A stretch of 16,921 nt of DNA from an uncultured Desulfobacterales bacterium (lineage in GTDB: Bacteria; Desulfobacterota; Desulfobacteria; Desulfobacterales; UBA11574): positions 1 through 16,921 of the forward strand of contig CALANC010000371.1 in the NCBI GenBank assembly GCA_937925895.1. The letters are read 5' to 3'. Positions 1,896 through 15,029 of this stretch are shown here, one piece after another. Below the pieces are notes generated by a model. It was not told where the DNA came from, searched no databases, and saw only the letters and a program-made list of their open reading frames with translations. Both the position numbers and the translations under genes were made by a program. Numbering within the stretch: the first letter of the stretch is position 1; each line of letters starts with the position of its first letter.

Positions 1896-3149
1896 CTAGT
1901 CGACGAAGACCTGGCCAAAATTGGCAGTGGTCAACGAATCTTCCATATACATTCCCAATCCGATGCGCTGGATCGATTCCATTCCCCGTTCATCGTACAC
2001 GGGCATCTCTAATTCCGGAGCGTCTTCTGGCGTGACCTCATCAGCAATCTGAATGGCGGTTTTTAATTTAGCAAAAGAAAAATCAACCAGGTGGCGAAGA
2101 AATCCGAACGGGTGCCGGATCATGTGAAAACCGAATTTCAATGCAAGGGCCTGGCCGCTTCTGGCGTCATCGAATGCCCGCTTCGTGGGGTGTTCCTCGT
2201 TGGTGGTTGCCCCGCTTTGGAAGGTCGGCAGATCGAGCATGAGATTCAGATGAGCCATGAGAATATTTAACAAATGATGACTTTTCAAGCCGTAGTTGGG
2301 ATTGTATTCGAACCGGGGATCGGCGATGGTGGGAAAACCGGCGTGAATCGCCGTAACTCCCGGATTGAGCAGCTGGGACGCACAGATGCCAAAAAGAACC
2401 TCGGCATGCGTTATGGAAAGCACGCCGTTGTAGCAATACGGCGCGCTGATGCCGGCCAGGGGCATGGCTGAAATAAAAACGGGCAGACCGGCCTGAACAA
2501 CTTTGACAAAAAACTCCGAAAGGTTATCATTGACTTCCAAGATGGGCCGGGTCAGGCAAAAGACGAGCATGATGTTGCCCCTCTCGGCGTGAATCTCTCT
2601 GGCTCTGGCAAGCGCGGCATCTGAGGTTGCCACGAAGTAAAGCGGTTTGGTGCAGTATTCCTTCATGATATTCATCTGCTCGATTTCGTCTTTTAGCAAT
2701 ACCCCTCTTCCCATGCCCGCCACCATCGGGTTCTCTTCCGCAATCCGGGCGATTTCAACCACATGATCGGCAGTCGGAATCATACCGCCGCAGCCGGCGA
2801 TATCATCATAAACATACGGGGCCGTACCGCCGATAAAAAAACTGTCTCGGGGAACAAAAAAATCGACCACACCGGGCACCGATGAAAGACAGTTTGTTAT
2901 TAATTCGGCGGTCAGGTAAATTCGATTTTCATAGACAATGGCCTGCCCCTGGGCTTCAAATTTCTGGAAGGCTTTCTGAATGACGGGTTGAGAGCACCCC
3001 ACGCCGAGATTTTCCAACATCCACAAGGCATCCTGGTGAACCTGCATCAACATCTCAACGGTTTGTTTTCCGAGCAAGCTTGTCGAGTGCTCAATTTGTG
3101 CTGAATTCATATGATGCTTTCCTACCTCTATGTTTTTGAGATGATCCAT
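1896..3149 (-). CDS. MttB-superfamily (trimethylamine methyltransferase family) protein, without pyrrolysine
   Basis: This 417-residue protein resembles the MttB superfamily, whose members move methyl groups from tertiary or quaternary amines to a corrinoid protein. The N-terminal stretch QVHQDALWMLENLGVGCSQPVIQKAF is the typical opening, and an internal GAPYVYDDIAGCGGM-like region and SGATTNEEHP follow. It is shorter than the usual 470-500 residues and diverges in the C-terminal third, where archaeal MttB carries pyrrolysine. No internal amber codon is present, and the TAG at the end is followed soon by another in-frame TAG, so it is an ordinary stop. Residue 1 at 3149 lies 20 bp after soxG. 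An alternative start at 3110 (residue 14) has a better ribosome binding site, AGGAAAG about 6 bases upstream, and may be the true one. No cognate corrinoid protein gene lies in the window. The substrate is unknown; the neighbouring sarcosine oxidase genes suggest an N-methyl amino acid or betaine-like compound (inference). Confidence 0.8.
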   Translation of the reverse strand: MDHLKNIEVGKHHMNSAQIEHSTSLLGKQTVEMLMQVHQDALWMLENLGVGCSQPVIQKAFQKFEAQGQAIVYENRIYLTAELITNCLSSVPGVVDFFVPRDSFFIGGTAPYVYDDIAGCGGMIPTADHVVEIARIAEENPMVAGMGRGVLLKDEIEQMNIMKEYCTKPLYFVATSDAALARAREIHAERGNIMLVFCLTRPILEVNDNLSEFFVKVVQAGLPVFISAMPLAGISAPYCYNGVLSITHAEVLFGICASQLLNPGVTAIHAGFPTIADPRFEYNPNYGLKSHHLLNILMAHLNLMLDLPTFQSGATTNEEHPTKRAFDDARSGQALALKFGFHMIRHPFGFLRHLVDFSFAKLKTAIQIADEVTPEDAPELEMPVYDERGMESIQRIGLGMYMEDSLTTANFGQVFVD

Positions 3150-3169
3150 AATTTATTATCTTGCCCGAG

Positions 3170-3787
3170 TCAGAGGATAAAAGCCGCTTCACCCGCCGGC
3201 CTTAAATCCGCCTCCTTTCCGGCGGCAAACACGGCATCCACCATATCCCTTGCATATCCTCTCGAACAGCTCAAAAGCAAAAGGCAATTGTCTGTTTTAT
3301 TTTTGACAACCACGACCTGACAGGGGACGTGAGCAAAAGGCCCCTGGAACAGGTATGGTGTAGGTTTTTCCGGATTTTGGAGGTCCAGCGAAGTCAATTT
3401 TTCGGTGATGGAAAACAGATTCGGCCCCGTAAGGGCGAGCAACAGGTGACCTTCCGTGATATCCGTGAATTCGGAGGTATTCGGCTGCTCATTTTTTTCT
3501 TGTCCAGTGATGATTATCCGTGCCTGTGTCGCGTTCATGCGGCAGACCATTCTACCGTGCATCAGTTTACACCGGCCCGGCGATTTCGGGATTTCAACAC
3601 CAAAAGGCTGAATGGTATCCAGCGCTGAACTTTGAACATCCCATTTCGGCTTGTGGCTCAAATCAATCAGATGAGGACCTTCGCCTTCTTGGGGATATTT
3701 TAAGGCAACGCGCCAAAGGCCTCGGAGTTCTGTTTGAACCGGCTGTTTTTCAAATGAAACCGGGGAATATCTTCGCATCTCATTCAT
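3170..3787 (-). CDS. soxG: Sarcosine oxidase gamma subunit-like protein (SoxG)
   Basis: This 205-residue protein matches the size of SoxG, the small subunit of heterotetrameric sarcosine oxidase, which has a folate-binding (GcvT-like) fold without its own catalytic centre. The sequence is divergent. The segment TEGHLLLALTGPNLFSITEKL and the later FAHVPCQVVVVKN and SRGYARDMVDAV segments resemble the LxGP and C-terminal SRS/SGR-type segments of that family. The call rests strongly on position, directly downstream of soxA in the classical order B-D-A-G. It is separated from soxA by 151 bp containing a large inverted repeat. No good ribosome binding site is seen before 3787; the next Met at 3778 is no better. 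The MttB-like gene follows 20 bp later. The gene is probably translated as part of the sox transcript. Confidence 0.75.
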   Translation of the reverse strand: MNEMRRYSPVSFEKQPVQTELRGLWRVALKYPQEGEGPHLIDLSHKPKWDVQSSALDTIQPFGVEIPKSPGRCKLMHGRMVCRMNATQARIIITGQEKNEQPNTSEFTDITEGHLLLALTGPNLFSITEKLTSLDLQNPEKPTPYLFQGPFAHVPCQVVVVKNKTDNCLLLLSCSRGYARDMVDAVFAAGKEADLRPAGEAAFIL

Positions 3788-3938
3788 TCGATTTCTTTTA
3801 AGGAGTTATAATAATTTTTAAAAAAAGGTTCTCTAGCAGCCACCAGATAATTTAGTATAGATCGTACTTCCCGAGCCTAACTAAATCACCTGGCGGCTTA
3901 TTACAAATATGAACAAATATGCCTTAACCGGAACATAA
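3788..3938 (-). repeat. Intergenic inverted repeat between soxA and soxG (arms 3839-3856 and 3880-3897)
   Basis: The 151-bp gap between soxA and soxG is dominated by an 18-bp inverted repeat with a 23-base spacer. On the plus strand the arms show three A-C mismatches. In the minus-strand transcript, which is the operon mRNA, these become G-U wobbles, so all 18 positions pair; one further A-T pair can be added at the outside (3838/3898). A T6 run on the minus strand follows the stem only after about 12 bases, so this is not a textbook intrinsic terminator. It may be an mRNA-stabilising or processing hairpin, a partial attenuator lowering soxG expression, or a dispersed repeat unit. Confidence 0.65.
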
Positions 3939-6860
3939 TTAGATTTTCAACCGCGCTCCCTCCGGATCATAAAACGGCATCCGGGCAACCCTGGCGTATG
4001 TCAATTTTCCATTGCAATCGTCCTCAAATATAGCCAATCGTTCACTTATCGACGACAGACGATCTTCCACAAGAGCCATTCCCACGGACGCGTTTAACGT
4101 GTGACTGTACCGGGCGGTGCAAACGTAACCGCGGATCTTTTCGTCAACGATGATAGAGCCGTCTCTGGGCGGTGCGGATGCAGAATCTTCCATTTCAAAT
4201 CCCACCAGCTTCAAGCGTCCTTTTTGATTTTCTGTATGTTTCAACGCAGCTGCACCCACCGTTTTGGCTTCCGGTTTGTTTCTGTGCCAGAGAAATCCCA
4301 GTCCCAGATCATGCAACGTGGTGCGCTGCTCGGATTCGGACCCGATGATCACATGACCTTTTTCCATTCGAAGGATGTTTTGAGCTTCCAGTCCGAAATT
4401 TCGAATACCCCAAGGCTTGCCTGTTTCTTCTAATATCTTCCAAACCGTAATCATATAAGAGGCGGGTACATGCAGCTCGAATGAGAGCTCACCCACAAAT
4501 CCCAGGCGCATCACCCGCACGGGTATGGTATTCAGGATTAAAAGCTCACGATAGCCGGCATAGGGGAAGGCCTCGGGGGAGACGTCCGAATCGGTTGCTC
4601 GTTCCAAAACCTCACGTGCTTTAGGGCCTGCCAGGTTGATGACGCCGAAAGCATCGGTCAGGTTAACCAGGTGGAAATCCCAGCCGTCATAGCGGGTGTG
4701 AAAACGAATCCATTCAATCGTTCCACCGGCACGGGCGGTCGAGGTGGTAAAGAAATAATCATTTTTCCCCCTTTGAACGACCACACCGTCGTCGATCAAA
4801 CAGCCGTCATCGTTGCACATGGCGGAATATTTCACTTTGCCCTCGGCAATATTGGTCATGTCTCCTACATAAACCCGTTGGAGCGCCTTTAGGGCATCCG
4901 GTCCGTGGAGGCGAAATTTGCCGAGTGTGGAAGCATCCAAAATTGCAACTGAGGTGCGCACGGCTTCAATTTCCTCCCTGATGCTTTTGTCAGGGGAAAA
5001 ATATCGGGCTCGACGCCAACCACCGACACGCTCCATTTTTCCGCCGGAGGAAATTTGTAGGTCATGCACAGGAGTCCGCTTGCTCATGTCCAGATTTTTG
5101 CCGGCATAAGTTGCCAGCAGCACCGGAACCATCGGCGGTCTCACCGTGGTCGGTGAGGGCGGATCATCTGCCGGCAGGCGGGATTGACCGACATATAAGG
5201 GGAGGTTATGCCCCGGAATACCACCCTGTCCCGGACCGGTGCCGGCGGCGGTAAAACGTTTAATGAGCTCCGGCATTTCAAAACCTACGGAGAAGGCTTG
5301 ATCAATATTTTGAAGCGTCGCGTCTTCGTCAAAGCATATAAACACTTTTTTACCCTTGCCTGGAGGGCTCACCCACTTCGATCCGAGTGGCGGTCCGGGT
5401 AGTGTTGCTAGCTGTTCTTCGACTTCCTTTCTTAATCCGTTGGTGGTTTCCTTGCAGCCCGCAGCAGCGTTTAAACCTGCCAGCCGGCCTGAGATTTCGA
5501 TGCTCAACGGATGATGAAATCCAAGCATTCTCCCGGAGGCGTACACCCTCTCCGGCAAGTTAACAGGTAAAAAGAAACCGGTATGGTTATCGTAGGACAG
5601 CTTGCACTGAGCGATGCTCAGGAGCCCGGTAGCCGGTGTTAATCCAGCCGAAGCCACTAGCACCTCACAGGGTATATCTCGACGACGGGTTCCGGAGACA
5701 GTGCTAATCGTAACCGCTTTAACCGCTTTTTTTCCCTTAACCTTTGCGGCGACCCATCCCCTGTAAAAAGGAATGTTTCTTTTTTTCAATTCAGCCACCA
5801 GTTCCGCATCCTGACCGTCTTCACGATTATCGGCTACACAGAGCACCTCCATTCCGAGATCGAACAGGTCGATGGCGGCTTCCAAGCCGAGGTCGTGGCC
5901 GGTACAAAAAACGGCATTTTTTCCGGGAAGAATTCCCCAGGTTCTGGCGAGCCTGTGGGCGCAACCCACCTGCATGACACCGGGTCGTTCATTGTTTTCA
6001 AACAACAAGGGGCGTTCAAGGCACCCGGTGGCAACGACCAGGCTTTTTGCCCGGATTTCAACATACCTTTCTTTGTAGGCATCAGGACGTCCGCCCACTT
6101 GAAAGGCGGTTATCTGATTATCCGGATAAATACCGACAACAGCCGTCTGTAAAAAAACCCTGATATTTTTGTTTTCTGTAACACGTTGAGAAAGTACACC
6201 GGCTCTCTCGTGAAGGGAAAATCCGTCAAGATATTTTGCCGGTCTGTAGTCAAAAATCCCCCCCAACCAAGGTCTGGCTTCAATTAAAATAACCTGCAGC
6301 CCCTGATCGGCGGCAGCCAGGGCAGTCGACATGCCTGCCGGTCCTCCGCCGATAACACAAAGGTCTGTGTGTGGATAAATTTCATCAAATCTGACCTGCA
6401 TGACGAAATCATGGCGAAGTGTCCCGAGGCCGGCTATTTTTCTGATCCGTTTGAGCGCCAGGGGCCAAAGGCTCGGCGGTTTGTGAAACATATGATAAAA
6501 AAACCCGGCCGGCATGGCCCGGCTGAATCTATCCATGATGCCCAGGAGATCGAATTCAGGCGAACCCACCACGTTCTGTGCCTTAACCGTCATCCCATGC
6601 CTGGCCGGAGTCGTTTCGGTTCGCAGGTTGGGAATGCCGTCAATCGCCATTGTCGTGTTGCTGCATTCACCATCGAGGCTGTATAATCCGCGAGGACGAT
6701 GGTATTTGAGGCTCCGGGAAAATATGCGGATACCGTTGGCATACAGCAGGCTGGCTACGGTATCGCCCTCATACCCCTGGTAGGATTTACCCCTGTAGGT
6801 GATAAAAACCTTTTTTTCAGGATCAATACGGCACGTCGGCAATTGGCTCAGCCTTTTCAT
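3939..6860 (-). CDS. soxA: Sarcosine oxidase alpha subunit family protein (SoxA)
   Basis: This 973-residue protein has the full SoxA layout. An N-terminal Fer2_4-like domain (about 15-100) contains LKYHRPRG but only one cysteine, so no [2Fe-2S] cluster is expected, as in classical tetrameric sarcosine oxidases. A dinucleotide-binding domain follows with VIGGGPAGMSTA at about 169-180 and ASGRMLGFHHP later. A SoxA_A3-like segment (about 515-590) reads FICFDEDATLQNI, equivalent to FVDFQNDVT in the known enzymes. The C-terminal GcvT-like aminomethyltransferase domain (about 615-970) includes LDASTLGKF, GFVGELSFELHVP and ILRMEKGH. In the family the amine is oxidised on SoxB and the methyl carbon is transferred to tetrahydrofolate in the GcvT domain, giving 5,10-methylene-THF. 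The start overlaps the soxD stop as TGATG, with AAAGGA about 8 bases upstream, implying translational coupling. The true substrate could be another N-methyl amino acid such as dimethylglycine. Confidence 0.93.
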   Translation of the reverse strand: MKRLSQLPTCRIDPEKKVFITYRGKSYQGYEGDTVASLLYANGIRIFSRSLKYHRPRGLYSLDGECSNTTMAIDGIPNLRTETTPARHGMTVKAQNVVGSPEFDLLGIMDRFSRAMPAGFFYHMFHKPPSLWPLALKRIRKIAGLGTLRHDFVMQVRFDEIYPHTDLCVIGGGPAGMSTALAAADQGLQVILIEARPWLGGIFDYRPAKYLDGFSLHERAGVLSQRVTENKNIRVFLQTAVVGIYPDNQITAFQVGGRPDAYKERYVEIRAKSLVVATGCLERPLLFENNERPGVMQVGCAHRLARTWGILPGKNAVFCTGHDLGLEAAIDLFDLGMEVLCVADNREDGQDAELVAELKKRNIPFYRGWVAAKVKGKKAVKAVTISTVSGTRRRDIPCEVLVASAGLTPATGLLSIAQCKLSYDNHTGFFLPVNLPERVYASGRMLGFHHPLSIEISGRLAGLNAAAGCKETTNGLRKEVEEQLATLPGPPLGSKWVSPPGKGKKVFICFDEDATLQNIDQAFSVGFEMPELIKRFTAAGTGPGQGGIPGHNLPLYVGQSRLPADDPPSPTTVRPPMVPVLLATYAGKNLDMSKRTPVHDLQISSGGKMERVGGWRRARYFSPDKSIREEIEAVRTSVAILDASTLGKFRLHGPDALKALQRVYVGDMTNIAEGKVKYSAMCNDDGCLIDDGVVVQRGKNDYFFTTSTARAGGTIEWIRFHTRYDGWDFHLVNLTDAFGVINLAGPKAREVLERATDSDVSPEAFPYAGYRELLILNTIPVRVMRLGFVGELSFELHVPASYMITVWKILEETGKPWGIRNFGLEAQNILRMEKGHVIIGSESEQRTTLHDLGLGFLWHRNKPEAKTVGAAALKHTENQKGRLKLVGFEMEDSASAPPRDGSIIVDEKIRGYVCTARYSHTLNASVGMALVEDRLSSISERLAIFEDDCNGKLTYARVARMPFYDPEGARLKI

Positions 6861-7132
6861 CAGGCATCCTTTATCTTGTCTTCAACAGGTAGAGGGACTT
6901 CTCCAATCGTTCTGGTGTCCCGATAAATCTTAAACCACGTGCCGCATCCGTCGCGATGACACCACCACTCTTTTTGCATCCCGGCAATGCAGGTGTTCAA
7001 GTGGGTATAATCGAACCATTTTTCCGGTGTCAGTTCATCTTCATCAGGTCTGGGGCCTTTGTCCTCACCGCCGTAGCGAAATTCGTAACCGCTGCGCTTG
7101 CCGCAGATGGGACAAGTGATTGTTAATGACAT
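6860..7132 (-). CDS. soxD: Sarcosine oxidase delta subunit (SoxD)
   Basis: This 90-residue protein has the SoxD zinc-binding pattern: CPIC at residues 7-10, and His59 and Cys63 in the WWCHRDGCGTWF segment, followed by RDT as in known delta subunits. SoxD is the small zinc subunit that joins the alpha and beta subunits of the heterotetramer. The start at 7132 has a good ribosome binding site (AGGGGA, 9-base spacing). The stop codon overlaps the soxA start (TGATG). It is separated from soxB by 292 bp that contain two inverted-repeat elements, which is unusual because soxB and soxD are normally close together. Confidence 0.93.
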   Translation of the reverse strand: MSLTITCPICGKRSGYEFRYGGEDKGPRPDEDELTPEKWFDYTHLNTCIAGMQKEWWCHRDGCGTWFKIYRDTRTIGEVPLPVEDKIKDA

Positions 7133-7152
7133 AGCTTAATTCCCCTAGTTAT

Positions 7153-7272
7153 AGATTTCGAGATAAAGATTTTGGACTGCGTTATCGGTCGAAATGCTCG
7201 ACGGAGTACTCATATGTATGCCTTACTCGTATTTCTCCCTCTATCCTTGCCAAAACCATTATCTCGAAATCT
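7153..7272. repeat. 120-bp element with 23-bp terminal inverted repeats in the soxB-soxD gap
   Basis: The 23 bases at 7153-7175 and the reverse complement of 7250-7272 agree at 21 of 23 positions, starting with a perfect 14-base match (AGATTTCGAGATAA). The 74-base interior includes a smaller hairpin, GTCGA-AATGC-TCGAC. The compact size, terminal inverted repeats and lack of coding capacity look like a MITE-like or REP-like dispersed element. No second copy is present in this window, so the repeat status is an inference. No obvious target-site duplication was identified. Confidence 0.6.
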
Positions 7273-7288
7273 AAATAATATCCCGTCC

Positions 7289-7415
7289 AGAAATGGTAGC
7301 TTTTGGTTCAGGGCAAGGCTAGAGCGTTTTTTCAACCGCAGGCATAGTGTGTGTCCTATTCCGAGGATTGAAAAAATGCGAAAAACGAAGCCCTGGGCCA
7401 AAAGATGCCGTTTCT
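7289..7415. repeat. 127-bp long imperfect hairpin element just downstream of soxB
   Basis: Three nested stems can be read. The outer arms 7289-7314 and 7390-7415 pair at 25 of 26 positions when the plus strand is taken as RNA, including four G-U pairs. The middle arms 7324-7335 and 7368-7379 pair at all 12 positions with one G-U. The inner arms 7341-7347 and 7356-7362 pair at 6 of 7. The wobble pairs occur on the plus strand, opposite to the operon. It begins 10 bp after the soxB stop codon. It could be a dispersed hairpin element, an mRNA 3'-end stabiliser for soxB, or a decayed mobile-element end. No reading frame of note lies inside. Confidence 0.6.
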
Positions 7416-7424
7416 TTATAAAAA

Positions 7425-8645
7425 CTAGTTGTTTGGGCTAAATTCCACCAATGCCGCGGTTTCACCCATAAGCCGGTGTTTTTCAAAACGCTGCCTTGTA
7501 AACGGTTTAAGTATTGCAGGACATTGCCCGGTGGCCATGAACCGGGCCATGTATTTCCCGGTGACCGCTGAGGATTTGAAGCCGAAATATCCCCAGCCGC
7601 AATCGACAAAATATCCTTCGACAGGATCATTGCCGTCGATTATCGGTGCCATATCCGGGGTCATATCTGCCAGCCCCCCCCAAATTCTCATGAACTTCGC
7701 CCCTTTTAAGCAAGGGAAAAGCTCCGTCAATGCCTCGGCCTGGTGTTTAATATAATAAGCCGTGTTTTGGGTGGTATAATTGGGCCAAGGGTCCATATGG
7801 GAACCGGTGGCGATTTCACCTTTGAGTGTCTGGTTGGCATAGACATGGTATGCCCCAGAGGAAACGACATGATCCATAAGTGGTTTTAAAGGTTGGGTCA
7901 CCATGGCCTGAATCGTTAGCACACTGATCGGCATTCGAATATCCAACATCTGGTATGCCAGTGCGGCTGAATAGGCCCCGGCCGCATTGAGCACTTTTTC
8001 CGTTTTAATCTTTCCTCGCGTCGTTTCGATAAATTCGACCTTGCCGTTTTTCACACCGATGTCGGTGACCTCGGTATTCTGATGGATATGTACGCCGTGT
8101 TTTATACAACCTCTGGCAAGCCCCCAGACCACGGCATCGTGACGGACGATGCCGCCGGGTGGATGATACATACCCCCGAAAATCGGATATCGGGGTCGAT
8201 CGGAGATATCGAGAGCCGGAACCAGGGTTTTGCATTCTTTTGCATCCAGCAACCGGCTGTCAATACCATGAAACTGGGCCGAGGAAACATTCAGTCGCAG
8301 TGATTTTATAGCGGCGTCACTGTGGGCCAAATTCAGATTTCCACAGTTGTAAAACATCAGGTTGAAATCGAGTTCTCTGGTTAACAGCGGCCAGAGTTTT
8401 AAAGCTTCTTGATAAAGGGGAAGGTTTTCCTGGGTACGTTGGTTGGCGCGTACAATGGCGGTATTTCTTCCGGCTCCACCAAAACCGATATAGCGTTTTT
8501 CGATGACTGCGACGTTATTGATTCCGTGATCCTTGGCCAAATAATAGGCGGTGGCAAGACCGTGGAGCCCCCCCCCGATAATCACGGCATCATAGCTGGA
8601 CCGAAACCGAGATTTTCCCAACAGCTGTTCATGTTTAAAAACCAT
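7425..8645 (-). CDS. soxB: Sarcosine oxidase beta subunit family FAD-dependent oxidoreductase (SoxB)
   Basis: This 406-residue flavoprotein has an N-terminal dinucleotide-binding motif (VIIGGGLHGLATAYYLA, about residues 21-37) with the matching Glu49 at the end of the second strand (VAVIEK). The segment GGIVRHDAVVWGLARG places His169 where the heterotetrameric enzymes attach FMN covalently (His173 region in characterised SoxB). The C-terminal motifs IWGGLADMTPDMAPIIDG and GYFVDCGWGYFGFKSSAVTGK are typical of SoxB. It is the substrate-oxidising subunit. It starts 25 bp after the ParB/RAM fusion gene on the same strand, with only a weak ribosome binding site. Classical enzymes use O2; in an anaerobe the electrons would more plausibly go to a carrier such as an electron-transfer flavoprotein (inference). 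Confidence 0.93.
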   Translation of the reverse strand: MVFKHEQLLGKSRFRSSYDAVIIGGGLHGLATAYYLAKDHGINNVAVIEKRYIGFGGAGRNTAIVRANQRTQENLPLYQEALKLWPLLTRELDFNLMFYNCGNLNLAHSDAAIKSLRLNVSSAQFHGIDSRLLDAKECKTLVPALDISDRPRYPIFGGMYHPPGGIVRHDAVVWGLARGCIKHGVHIHQNTEVTDIGVKNGKVEFIETTRGKIKTEKVLNAAGAYSAALAYQMLDIRMPISVLTIQAMVTQPLKPLMDHVVSSGAYHVYANQTLKGEIATGSHMDPWPNYTTQNTAYYIKHQAEALTELFPCLKGAKFMRIWGGLADMTPDMAPIIDGNDPVEGYFVDCGWGYFGFKSSAVTGKYMARFMATGQCPAILKPFTRQRFEKHRLMGETAALVEFSPNN

Positions 8646-11986: not shown

Positions 11987-13267
11987 ATGGCACACAATAC
12001 AATTAAATCCGGTTATTCCCGTCTGGTGGATCGATTAAATCGTTATCCAGAGGGTGCTCCCCCTTCGGAGCTCTTACATAAAATCCTGAAAATACTTTTC
12101 AGAGAGAAAGAAGCTGAATTGGTTTCGCTTTTGCCTATCAAGTCCTTTACGGCAAAGAAAGCGAGCCTCGTCTGGCAAATGGATCTGGCCAGTGCTCAAA
12201 ACGTACTGGATGAACTGGCTGGTCGGGCTATACTGGTCGATTTAGACCAAAATGGAGAGTCCGTATACACCCTTCCTCCTCCCATGGCAGGCTTTTTTGA
12301 GTTTTCTTTAATGCGTGTGCGAGATGATATAGATCAAAAAGTATTGAGCGAACTGTTTTTTCAGTATTTGAACGTGGAAGAGGATTTTATCCTGGATCTG
12401 TTTACACGCGGCGAAACTCAGCTGGGGCGCACCTTTGTCCACGAACCGGTGTTATCCAATGAAAACGCACTCTACGTATTGGATTATGAACGTGCTACCC
12501 AGATCATAAAAGGTGCTTCTCATAGGGCAATTGGTATGTGTTATTGCCGTCATAAAATGTACCATATGGACAGGGCCTGTGATGCCCCGATGGAAATATG
12601 CATGACGTTTAATACGACGGCATCGTCGCTGATTAAACATGGTTTCGCCCGCCGGGTGGATGTTGCAGAAGGTCTTGATATTTTACAGTTGGCTTACGAA
12701 CATAATCTGGTCCAGTTCGGTGAAAATGTGAAAGAGGGGGTTAATTTCATATGTAACTGCTGCGGGTGTTGTTGCGAAGCTATGATCGCGGCCCGTCGAT
12801 TTGCGGTTTTTAATCCTATTCATACCACCAATTTTATCCCTGAAATCAACAAAGATAATTGTCTCGGATGTGGAAAATGCGTGATTGCCTGTCCAGTAGA
12901 GGCCATGGCTTTAGTATCATCTAATGATCCTGCTAAACCAATAATGAAACGATCAAACCTGAATGAAGACCTTTGTTTGGGATGCGGTCTTTGCGTTAGA
13001 GCCTGCGTGAACGACAGTATTATTCTCAATTCTCGACCAAAGAGAGTGATTACACCACTGAATACCACCCACAGGGCTGTGGTGATGGCCATCGAACGTG
13101 GTAACTTACAAAATTTGATTTTTGATAACCAGGTGCTGCTAAGTCATCGAGCCTTGGCTGGAGTTCTGGGGGTCATTTTGAAACTTCCACCATTCAAGCA
13201 GGCCCTTGCCAGCCAACAGGTTAAATCACGCTACCTGGAAGCCCTGATTAACCACTTGGAGTGCTAG
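11987..13267 (+). CDS. Cysteine-rich protein with two [4Fe-4S] ferredoxin motifs and helical N-terminal domain
   Basis: This 426-residue protein carries three cysteine zones. GMCYCR (Cys185, Cys187) with Cys198 and Cys205 comes first. A dense CNCCGCCC cluster (Cys256-Cys263) follows. Then come two ferredoxin motifs, CLGCGKCVIACP (Cys292, 295, 298, 302) and CLGCGLCVRACV (Cys330, 333, 336, 340). Residues 1-100 contain no Cys and look helical with a possible winged-helix-like pattern (FTAKKASLVWQMDLASAQNVLDELAGRAILVDL), a shape compatible with a MarR-like fold. The family is common in sulfate reducers as an uncharacterised 4Fe-4S binding protein (recollection). It may be an electron-transfer or redox-sensing protein. 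No Shine-Dalgarno sequence is obvious before 11987. It precedes the MerB-like gene but a probable terminator intervenes. Confidence 0.85.
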   Translation: MAHNTIKSGYSRLVDRLNRYPEGAPPSELLHKILKILFREKEAELVSLLPIKSFTAKKASLVWQMDLASAQNVLDELAGRAILVDLDQNGESVYTLPPPMAGFFEFSLMRVRDDIDQKVLSELFFQYLNVEEDFILDLFTRGETQLGRTFVHEPVLSNENALYVLDYERATQIIKGASHRAIGMCYCRHKMYHMDRACDAPMEICMTFNTTASSLIKHGFARRVDVAEGLDILQLAYEHNLVQFGENVKEGVNFICNCCGCCCEAMIAARRFAVFNPIHTTNFIPEINKDNCLGCGKCVIACPVEAMALVSSNDPAKPIMKRSNLNEDLCLGCGLCVRACVNDSIILNSRPKRVITPLNTTHRAVVMAIERGNLQNLIFDNQVLLSHRALAGVLGVILKLPPFKQALASQQVKSRYLEALINHLEC

Positions 13268-13359: not shown

Positions 13360-13505
13360 AAGGATGTGATGATAAAAGCAATCACCAGTTTTAAGAACCG
13401 CATAAAACCTATCCAAATAATGAAGAAATTAATTTTTTAAAGATCATCACCTGGAAAGAGCAGAAAATGAAACGGTAGTGGACCAATAGCAAATGAGGCA
13501 AATTT

Positions 13506-14270
13506 ATGAAAACTGATATAAAACGTAAAATGTACATTGGAATCTGGCGTTTTATGCTCCCACTTCCTATGGCGATTTCAGCAAAAGGGGTCAAAAGGAG
13601 CGTGTCTGGTGCAAAAACTAAAGCAGATCTTTTGTCGAAAGAGGAACGTAAGGTTCATCACTTTATTGTGAAGCAAATGGCGATTGCTAAAGAGCCTATA
13701 TTAGCAGAATTTATCGGAGAAAAGCTCAATATATCGTTAAATCGGGTCAAAGATATTGTGGAAAAGCTTGAAGGGATGAAAACCTTTTGTTACCGATATA
13801 ATAGTCAAGGTATAAACTGGGTTTATCCTCTATCTTTTGAAGATACAGGTCACAAAATAACCGTTAGCACCGGCGAGCAATTTTTCGCCGCTTGAGCGGT
13901 GGACGCTATTGCGGCTCCCTTCGTGTATGGGAAATTACGAGATGAGGAATTGTTTTTTACTATAAATTCGGAATGCGCTAACAGCGGAAAACCGATTAAG
14001 ATCGAACTTGACGGTGATCTAAATATTATAAACGTGGATAAAGATTCTGAACCCATGTATTGCATTGCATTAATGGATACCTCTAAAACAAAAGAACCAA
14101 GCATTGTGGATATTTTCTGACGAAAGTCACTTTTCTTCTGGTCAGAAGAAGATGCAAGAGGATACCAAAAGAAAACGCGTGAGCTTAAGTTCTATATGAA
14201 TCTTAGTGCAATATCTATTAAGAGTATTAAAAAAATACAATCAGCGATTTTTGATTTTTCAGAAGATTAA
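13506..14270 (+). CDS. MerB-like organometal lyase read as a selenoprotein with two in-frame UGA (Sec) codons (SaoL-like)
   Basis: Reading through TGA at 13893-13895 and 14118-14120, one open frame runs from ATG 13506 to TAA 14268-14270, giving 254 residues with Sec at 130 and 205. A ribosome binding site GAGG lies 7 bases upstream. Residues about 43-110 form a winged-helix-like region similar to the MerB N-terminal domain (ILAEFIGEKLNISLNRVKDIVEKLE). The core then follows MerB closely. FFAA-U-AVDAIAAPFVYG matches YAWCALDTLIFPALIG, putting Sec130 at catalytic Cys96 and Asp133 at catalytic Asp99. Cys157 in INSECANSGKPI matches Cys117. F-U-RKSLFFWSEEDA matches the FCCHVHFFAS region, putting Sec205 at catalytic Cys159. 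MerB cleaves carbon-mercury bonds by protonolysis with these residues. I recall a MerB-like selenoprotein family named SaoL in a selenocysteine-assisted organometal system. The N-terminal 40 residues are an extension or a start that is too early (next Met 13530). Standard gene calling would split this gene at 13895/13899 and lose the last 49 codons. Confidence 0.85.
13887..13932 (+). promoter_or_regulatory. Candidate SECIS region around the first UGA codon
   Basis: Two alternative foldings surround UGA 13893-13895. One is GCCGC (13887-13891) with GCGGC (13911-13915), enclosing AGCG-GTGGA-CGCT (13895-13907). The other is TCCC (13916-13919) with GGGA (13929-13932) and a nine-base loop TTCGTGTAT containing GU, centred about 29 bases past the UGA, a distance usual for bacterial SECIS loops. 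Neither is strong, so the element for this codon is tentative. Confidence 0.35.
14131..14152 (+). promoter_or_regulatory. Bacterial SECIS-like hairpin downstream of the second UGA codon
   Basis: Beginning 11 bases after UGA 14118-14120, TTTTCTTCT (14131-14139) pairs with AGAAGAAGA (14144-14152) over nine positions (one G-U), closing a GGTC tetraloop at 14140-14143. A loop with GGU at 20-23 bases after the UGA fits the bacterial SECIS pattern recognised by SelB. The element lies inside the coding sequence, as bacterial SECIS elements must. Confidence 0.65.
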
Positions 14271-14297: not shown

Positions 14298-15029
14298 ATG
14301 ACATCAAAAACTTCACTAACTACTGAAGTCATCTCGCAAGCTGAATCGTATGATGGAGTTCGAGCCCGAGTTGTCCGTTTAAAAGATGTTTTGAAAGGTC
14401 CTTCATATCAAGCTGCGTTGGCAGGTCCGAGATACACGGACTCAATGGACGATGTTCCAATTGATAATTGGCCGACAGAGGCCCAAACCGTGTTGATATT
14501 GGGTTTGAATCATCCGGAAAAAGACCCTCGTCAAGACTATTGGGAACGAGGCGATACCTGGGGTAATAGGCGCCTTAGGGAAATATCAGAGTTGATGAAA
14601 CGTTGGCTCCGGGAAAAACACGATTTAACCGCTCTACCGCTACCATATCATGTGGAAAAGGGTGGATTATTTCTGAAAGATGCTGCTGTTTTATCTGGTA
14701 TGGGTATCATAGGCAAGAATAATCTGCTTATACATCCGGAGTGGGGACCGAGAATCAGGTTTCGTTCTATTTTGGTGGAAGGAGATTTCCAAACGACAAA
14801 ATCACTCGAAGGATTCACTCCATGTGAAACCTGCGAGGTGTTTTGCCAAAAAGCTTGTCCAATGAAAGCTTTTCCCCAAGGAAAATACAGGTGGTCAATC
14901 TGCGTTAAGAGGTTAAATGCTGACGTTGAAAATAAAGTTCCCGAGGGAGAAATCGGAGAAAGTGGGAAACGCAATTTGGTGATTAAATATTTCCGAGCTT
15001 GTGAATTGTCGTGTCCGGTAGGAACTTAA
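14298..15029 (+). CDS. QueG-like (COG1600-type) 4Fe-4S reductase
   Basis: This 243-residue protein resembles the epoxyqueuosine reductase superfamily. The N-terminal half includes AQTVLILGLNHPEKDPRQDYW, and VLSGMGIIGKNNLLIHPEWGPRIRF (about 131-155) matches the GLGWIGKN.LLI.P..G motif of QueG. Cysteines follow as Cys176, Cys179, Cys183 and Cys187 (CETCEVFCQKACP), then Cys202, and CELSCP (Cys235, Cys239) near the end, enough for two [4Fe-4S] clusters. It is shorter than true QueG (about 350-380 residues), and lacks the HEAT-repeat tail, so a tRNA role is doubtful. A strong ribosome binding site AAGGAG lies 9 bases before the start, and the gene begins 27 bp after the MerB-like selenoprotein gene, so the two are probably co-transcribed. 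It may supply a reductive step in the same pathway (inference). Confidence 0.82.
   Translation: MTSKTSLTTEVISQAESYDGVRARVVRLKDVLKGPSYQAALAGPRYTDSMDDVPIDNWPTEAQTVLILGLNHPEKDPRQDYWERGDTWGNRRLREISELMKRWLREKHDLTALPLPYHVEKGGLFLKDAAVLSGMGIIGKNNLLIHPEWGPRIRFRSILVEGDFQTTKSLEGFTPCETCEVFCQKACPMKAFPQGKYRWSICVKRLNADVENKVPEGEIGESGKRNLVIKYFRACELSCPVGT

Follow-up and report, generated by a model that had tools for sequence, protein, structure and literature searches.

What is encoded by a gene of the alkylmercury lyase (MerB) type in which UGA stands at the place of both catalytic cysteines? The question is raised by a 16,921-nucleotide (nt) stretch of DNA from an uncultured Desulfobacterales bacterium (positions 1 to 16,921 of contig CALANC010000371.1, assembly GCA_937925895.1; hereafter the window). 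At positions 13506..14270 of its plus strand a frame of 254 codons runs from ATG to TAA and, as a preliminary description of the locus had it, is broken only by two TGA codons, at codon 130 (13893..13895) and codon 205 (14118..14120). Read through, it gives a MerB-like protein of 254 residues and about 28 kDa. The comparisons below make it very probable that selenocysteine (Sec) is inserted at both sites; given this, the product is rather probably an organomercurial lyase, with methylmercury as the likely substrate. We consider it moderately probable overall that the gene encodes a real selenoprotein with two Sec residues, which belongs to a family with the MerB fold, separate from both MerB and SaoL (NCBIfam NF040728), and works like MerB.

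The likeness to MerB is clear at the domain level. With UGA read as Cys, the protein matches the Pfam MerB domain (PF03243) at 52.6 bits against a gathering cut-off of 27, and stays below the cut-offs of the NCBIfam MerB models (NF009710, 51.6 against 193; NF033555, 47 against 200); no model in NCBIfam 20.0 takes it over cut-off, the best match being NF040728. Because a search of the Protein Data Bank (PDB) with the single protein gave no match, comparison with known structures needed a profile, which was made of 14 homologues and aligned by HMMER to the MerB entries 3f2g and 1s6l. In this alignment residues 130, 133, 157 and 205 correspond to Cys96, Asp99, Cys117 and Cys159, respectively, and MerB2 (5c17) has Ser at the place of Asp99. 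The MerB numbering is the one we take to be standard, and it agrees with the titles of the D99S and C160S entries; Cys96, Asp99 and Cys159 we likewise take to be the catalytic residues. Of this set the window protein keeps Asp133 (13902..13904), and both Cys places are UGA; Cys157 (13974..13976) is also retained. Homology to MerB, the position of each UGA, and the survival of Asp133 and Cys157 as ordinary residues had all been proposed from an alignment by eye, and the profile alignment, with the family alignment for the two ordinary residues, bears them out. The protein has the MerB fold and the two soft-nucleophile positions of MerB (PDB 3f0o and 1s6l; MerB2 5c17), with the Asp99 and Cys117 positions kept, at about 15-18% identity, but differs in its putative Sec at both catalytic Cys positions, in a longer N-terminus, and in the absence of mer genes from its observed neighbourhood.

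Both UGA codons are conserved in the family. Among 60 genomes (the window's own and 59 relatives) 14 carry the gene, with two TGA codons in every copy. A survey of the class found matches in 43 of 389 genomes, and all 36 strong ones (E below 1e-70) have both TGAs; in two of the 36 a single additional stop, TAG or TAA, is present. A scan of named genomes, mostly metagenome-assembled, was seeded by two conserved peptide patterns and gave 63 loci under titles that include Desulfobacterales, Syntrophus, Zixiibacteriota, Nitrospirota, Acidobacteria, Anaerolineales/Chloroflexota and Acidimicrobiia. Both sites are TGA in all 63, that is, in 62 by alignment and in L088, which is frameshifted, yet has TGA as its two stops at these sites. 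With 36/36 strong class matches and 63/63 loci, the placement of the TGAs is beyond chance, as had been argued from the window copy, and the comparison upholds the proposal of Sec at both sites. In the alignment of 63 proteins (window included, L088 left out) the Sec-Asp-Cys-Sec set is kept in 62, the exception being L083 with Arg at the Cys117 site, and the sequence is conserved on both sides of both UGAs; identity to the window protein falls to 26% in an alignment of 52. Across a wider set of 59 aligned MerB-domain rows (56 distinct loci), each of the two catalytic sites is Sec or Cys in every row, so that UGA is aligned with the Cys of homologues. The gene has no match on plasmids, and 42 pattern matches in viral contigs include no relative.

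In the family, each UGA is followed by a stem-loop resembling the selenocysteine insertion sequence (SECIS). After the first (13915..13933, plus strand) the family has a 7-bp stem with a CGUG-type loop; 94.4% of cells are paired in 59 distinct sequences, 13 of which have one pair altered at both of its bases. After the second (14133..14150, plus strand) a 7-bp stem carries a GGUC loop, with 99.3% of cells paired in 63 sequences and three of the seven pairs changed on both sides. Covariation scores, which relatedness alone can raise, lie above all 500 shuffles and every slid control. The stem codons are frozen: at site 1, Phe139 is TTC, Val140 GTG and Gly142 GGG in 63/63, and at site 2 Phe210 is TTC in 57/57 and Phe211 TTC in 60/60. 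A single codon is used in at least 95% of sequences, a threshold picked after the table was seen, in 7 of 21 conserved columns behind the UGAs as against 0 of 56 elsewhere. A synonymous-shuffle scan of 20 of the 63 sequences places the nine lowest of 145 overlapping segments at starts in codons 131-137 and 203-204. The family consensus fits the bacterial SECIS (bSECIS) model as given in the legend to Fig. 2 of PMC13188914 (spacing, loop size, and a G within the first two loop bases), with spacings of 26 nt at site 1 and 19 nt at site 2. For the second UGA of the window gene, the 7-bp stem, GGUC loop and 19-nt spacing, with the covariation seen in the family, fit a bSECIS hairpin.

We propose a MerB-like lyase because the residues of the chemistry are conserved within a MerB fold. 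SelB, Sec-tRNA and each hairpin would insert Sec during translation, which would result in a Sec130/Asp133/Sec205 site in the MerB pocket. One selenolate would take over the organic mercury cation brought by a thiol or sulfide carrier, and the second selenolate would join; Asp133 would protonate the carbon, the alkane would leave, and Hg(II), held by the two selenolates, would be passed to a further acceptor, perhaps sulfide. Selenolates are ionised at neutral pH and are better mercury ligands than thiolates. With them the enzyme would be able to compete against sulfide in anoxic sediment, the apparent habitat of many carriers, judged by record titles.

A number of points weigh against this reading, some bearing on Sec and others on the lyase. 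None of SelA, SelB, SelD and tRNA-Sec is over its curated cut-off in the window's own assembly, which is 69% complete (2.58 Mb in 481 contigs); the best sub-threshold matches are 43.9 against 47 for tRNA-Sec and 86.1 against 125 for SelD. The preliminary description had named a lack of selB and selC as grounds for giving up selenocysteine; formally these genes are lacking here, but the assembly is incomplete, and SelB is over cut-off in 11 of the 14 carriers in the 60-genome search, the single-contig G003 among them. The presence of SelB does not single out carriers, because almost every genome of the class has it (327 of 389); at E up to 1e-60 it occurs in 28/36 class carriers and 299/353 non-carriers, so no enrichment in carriers was found among the 389. 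A looser search, which covered seven of the eight SelB-missing carriers, left all seven without SelB over cut-off, G241 at 97% completeness included, and returned partial or related GTPases and, in G015, a C-terminal fragment where the contig ends.

The hairpins add to this. The window's own site-1 hairpin is weak, with two of seven pairs broken and the bSECIS loop rule broken with them; the stretch folds alone at -5.2 kcal/mol, and the minimum-energy fold of 57 nt does not contain it. Across the family, the double-change pair and the pair-type counts of site 1 are not above shuffles. The geometry of the bSECIS model is by itself not discriminating, since 63.6% of background positions pass it, as against 63/63 and 62/63 at the two sites, and a lone hairpin at or below -7.5 kcal/mol is found in 40/63 sequences at site 1 and 12/63 at site 2, with 3.8% in the background. 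As for the lyase, it is chemically difficult to release Hg(II) once two selenolates hold it. We clustered neighbours by BLASTP, taking up to seven on each side at 63 loci (window in, L088 out; many contigs are short): none of the ten window neighbours clusters with any protein of another locus, and no mer genes are found among the clustered neighbours. Finally, the motif of the mercury methylation protein HgcA occurs in 22 of 30 carriers, six of the 36 not being in the draw, and in 112 of the 301 class genomes without the gene (p 1.6e-4), but the association shrinks within 13 mixed families (20/28 against 15.5 expected, one-sided p 0.03), so that shared ancestry accounts for much of the crude signal.

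The alternative that survives best, of appreciable if below-even probability, is that the two-Sec protein serves to bind or transport mercury or some other soft metal or metalloid (Hg(II), organo-As, organo-Sn), or takes part in redox reactions, without cleaving the C-Hg bond. It would suit a gene with no conserved neighbours in the window and no mer operon in sight, and relatives of the family are not uniform at the acid, a second double-Sec group having Glu for Asp99 and others varying there; moreover, a possible role as metal ligand is discussed for the Sec of SaoB, SaoC and UXX-star proteins (PMC13188914). What speaks for cleavage is that the whole catalytic set, both sites with Asp and Cys117, is present in 62 of the 63 aligned sequences of the clade, and in a full MerB fold.

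The place of the family was examined in a 54-row tree, built without the two Sec/Cys columns and with no root inferred. The window protein sits in a clade of 25 Sec-Asp-Sec proteins (support 100/99), and 12 Sec-Glu-Sec proteins (L177, L178, L181, L183, L185, L186 and L188-L193) make up a second clade (100/99), which together with nine Cys-Glu-Cys proteins forms a group of 21 rows (99/96). Because Sec-Glu-Sec and Cys-Glu-Cys proteins share this group, double Sec probably arose twice in the superfamily, a tentative conclusion, as the tree is unrooted and long branches meet near L171. The second group is like the window clade in having UGA at both sites and unlike it in having Glu for Asp99; 11 of its 12 members fold into a SECIS-like hairpin with a GGUC loop behind the second UGA, and 7 of 12 into a hairpin behind the first. 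Four Cys-Asp-Sec proteins lie elsewhere in the tree, and L164 is a canonical-looking MerB with Cys-Asp-Cys; single-Sec forms exist in the MerB-like superfamily. The MerB-like relatives L165, L166 and L172 fall in one clade (100/98) and all have Cys at the Cys96 site; at the Cys159 site L172 has Sec and the other two have Cys, possibly the trace of a single Sec/Cys exchange.

Two of the four Cys-Asp-Sec proteins pass the SaoL cut-off, the only ones to do so among 395 genomes of the phylum; their UGA is confined to site 159, and site 96 is Cys. They bear on the suggestion, made in the preliminary description, that the window protein is an ordinary SaoL, i.e., a single-Sec MerB-like organometal lyase. 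SaoL and the window protein share the MerB domain and Sec at the Cys159 site, and NF040728 is the best NCBIfam match, but the score is 64.6 bits against a cut-off of 140, over profile positions 6-137 of 159, and SaoL itself, with Cys at the Cys96 site and one Sec in the domain, branches apart from the well-supported window clade. The table row for SaoL in PMC13188914 gives the motif CU followed by 1, taken here as the number of Sec, and the two proteins over the cut-off agree with it; the window protein has two UGAs, and Phe precedes the second, so the CU pattern does not fit. Assignment to SaoL is thus highly improbable.

The remaining alternatives can be dealt with briefly. A pseudogene with two nonsense mutations, suggested by an own assembly in which no Sec machinery passes its cut-off, is refuted for the family because both TGAs are conserved through several phyla, with conserved protein on either side of each, hairpins and constrained codons, and for the window copy we give it almost no credence. 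An alternative genetic code with UGA as an ordinary amino acid would also yield one open frame with two UGAs, but it is scarcely credible, given that TGA is a stop in this genome, as 12 other window genes checked have none in frame and two of them end in it, that Trp is TGG in all 12, and that the residue aligned with UGA is Cys and a hairpin follows each UGA.

The start of the gene is preceded by GAGG (13495..13498, plus strand), 7 nt 5' of the ATG and likely a ribosome-binding site, which likewise precedes the starts in L007 and L008. Rfam has no match in the window at gathering threshold. A conserved operon for the window gene was considered and rejected, for its neighbours do not recur at other loci. 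Neighbours that recur in at least five loci are confined to an ABC ATPase (9), a MarR-like (7) and a MerR-like (5) protein, labels read by eye from sequence, and one other cluster (5). The MarR-like regulator is directly upstream in six loci and the MerR-like one in five (L050, L040 and others), and metal-responsive control is possible in part of the family. In the window, a QueG-like 4Fe-4S protein (14298-15029; 31.1 bits, cut-off 200) follows 27 nt downstream on the same strand, and a 426-residue protein with 4Fe-4S domains (11987-13267) lies upstream, also on the same strand; neighbour clustering finds neither next to the gene at other loci. On the minus strand, a run at 1896-8645 combines genes like sarcosine oxidase alpha, delta and beta with one for an MttB-like methyltransferase (57.6 bits, cut-off 525), none of which reaches its cut-off; it suggests demethylation of methylated amines or betaine.

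The genome of the window also has genes for HgcA (429.9 bits, cut-off 275; open at the contig end) and HgcB (120.2, cut-off 99) on another contig (L200:1-1485), which makes the organism a predicted mercury methylator. HgcA was confirmed by profile for L197 and this genome only, and by reading of the sequence for L198, L199 and L201.

In the literature, an alkylmercury lyase MerB-like selenoprotein is already named, with no motif given, in an earlier review (PMC9312934). A list of 119 prokaryotic selenoprotein families and subfamilies consists overwhelmingly of families with a single Sec, and few have two or three (PMC13188914). Passages retrieved by full-text searches, which were no check of priority, contain no double-Sec MerB and mention SaoL only as a table row. 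The family is widespread, and to an ordinary gene finder its genes look broken. PF03243 has 59 matches in the 395 phylum genomes: 35 with two TGAs (both double-Sec groups together), seven with one TGA, one with one TAA and 16 with no stop. As 35 of the 59 carry two in-frame TGAs, double-UGA forms may be the commoner MerB-like kind in the phylum, and this whole-genome search is an undercount, because it missed the window's own gene, with zero matches in that genome. One recent field survey checked MerB hits for Cys and Asp signatures (PMC12997803), a filter by which UGA-containing homologues would be discarded.

A broader hypothesis, offered tentatively and with less confidence than any part of the preferred reading, is that sulfate reducers and their allies, predicted hgcAB methylators included, have in the Sec/Sec clade an anaerobic methylmercury demethylase that has been overlooked. 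It would strip methylmercury from sulfide-bound forms via two selenolates and would account for part of mer-independent demethylation, and double Sec would have evolved at least twice in the superfamily. The family bears on demethylation in organisms with no detected mer operon, such as Desulfovibrio BerOc1, which demethylates mercury and in which the operon was not detected (PMC5255934), and it may help explain the destruction of methylmercury in oxygen-free mud. An enzyme with selenols in place of its two catalytic thiols is a natural experiment in the chemistry of soft metals. If the hypothesis is true, annotation that stops at UGA hides a demethylase in organisms said to lack merB. Re-annotation makes the question of demethylation directly testable.
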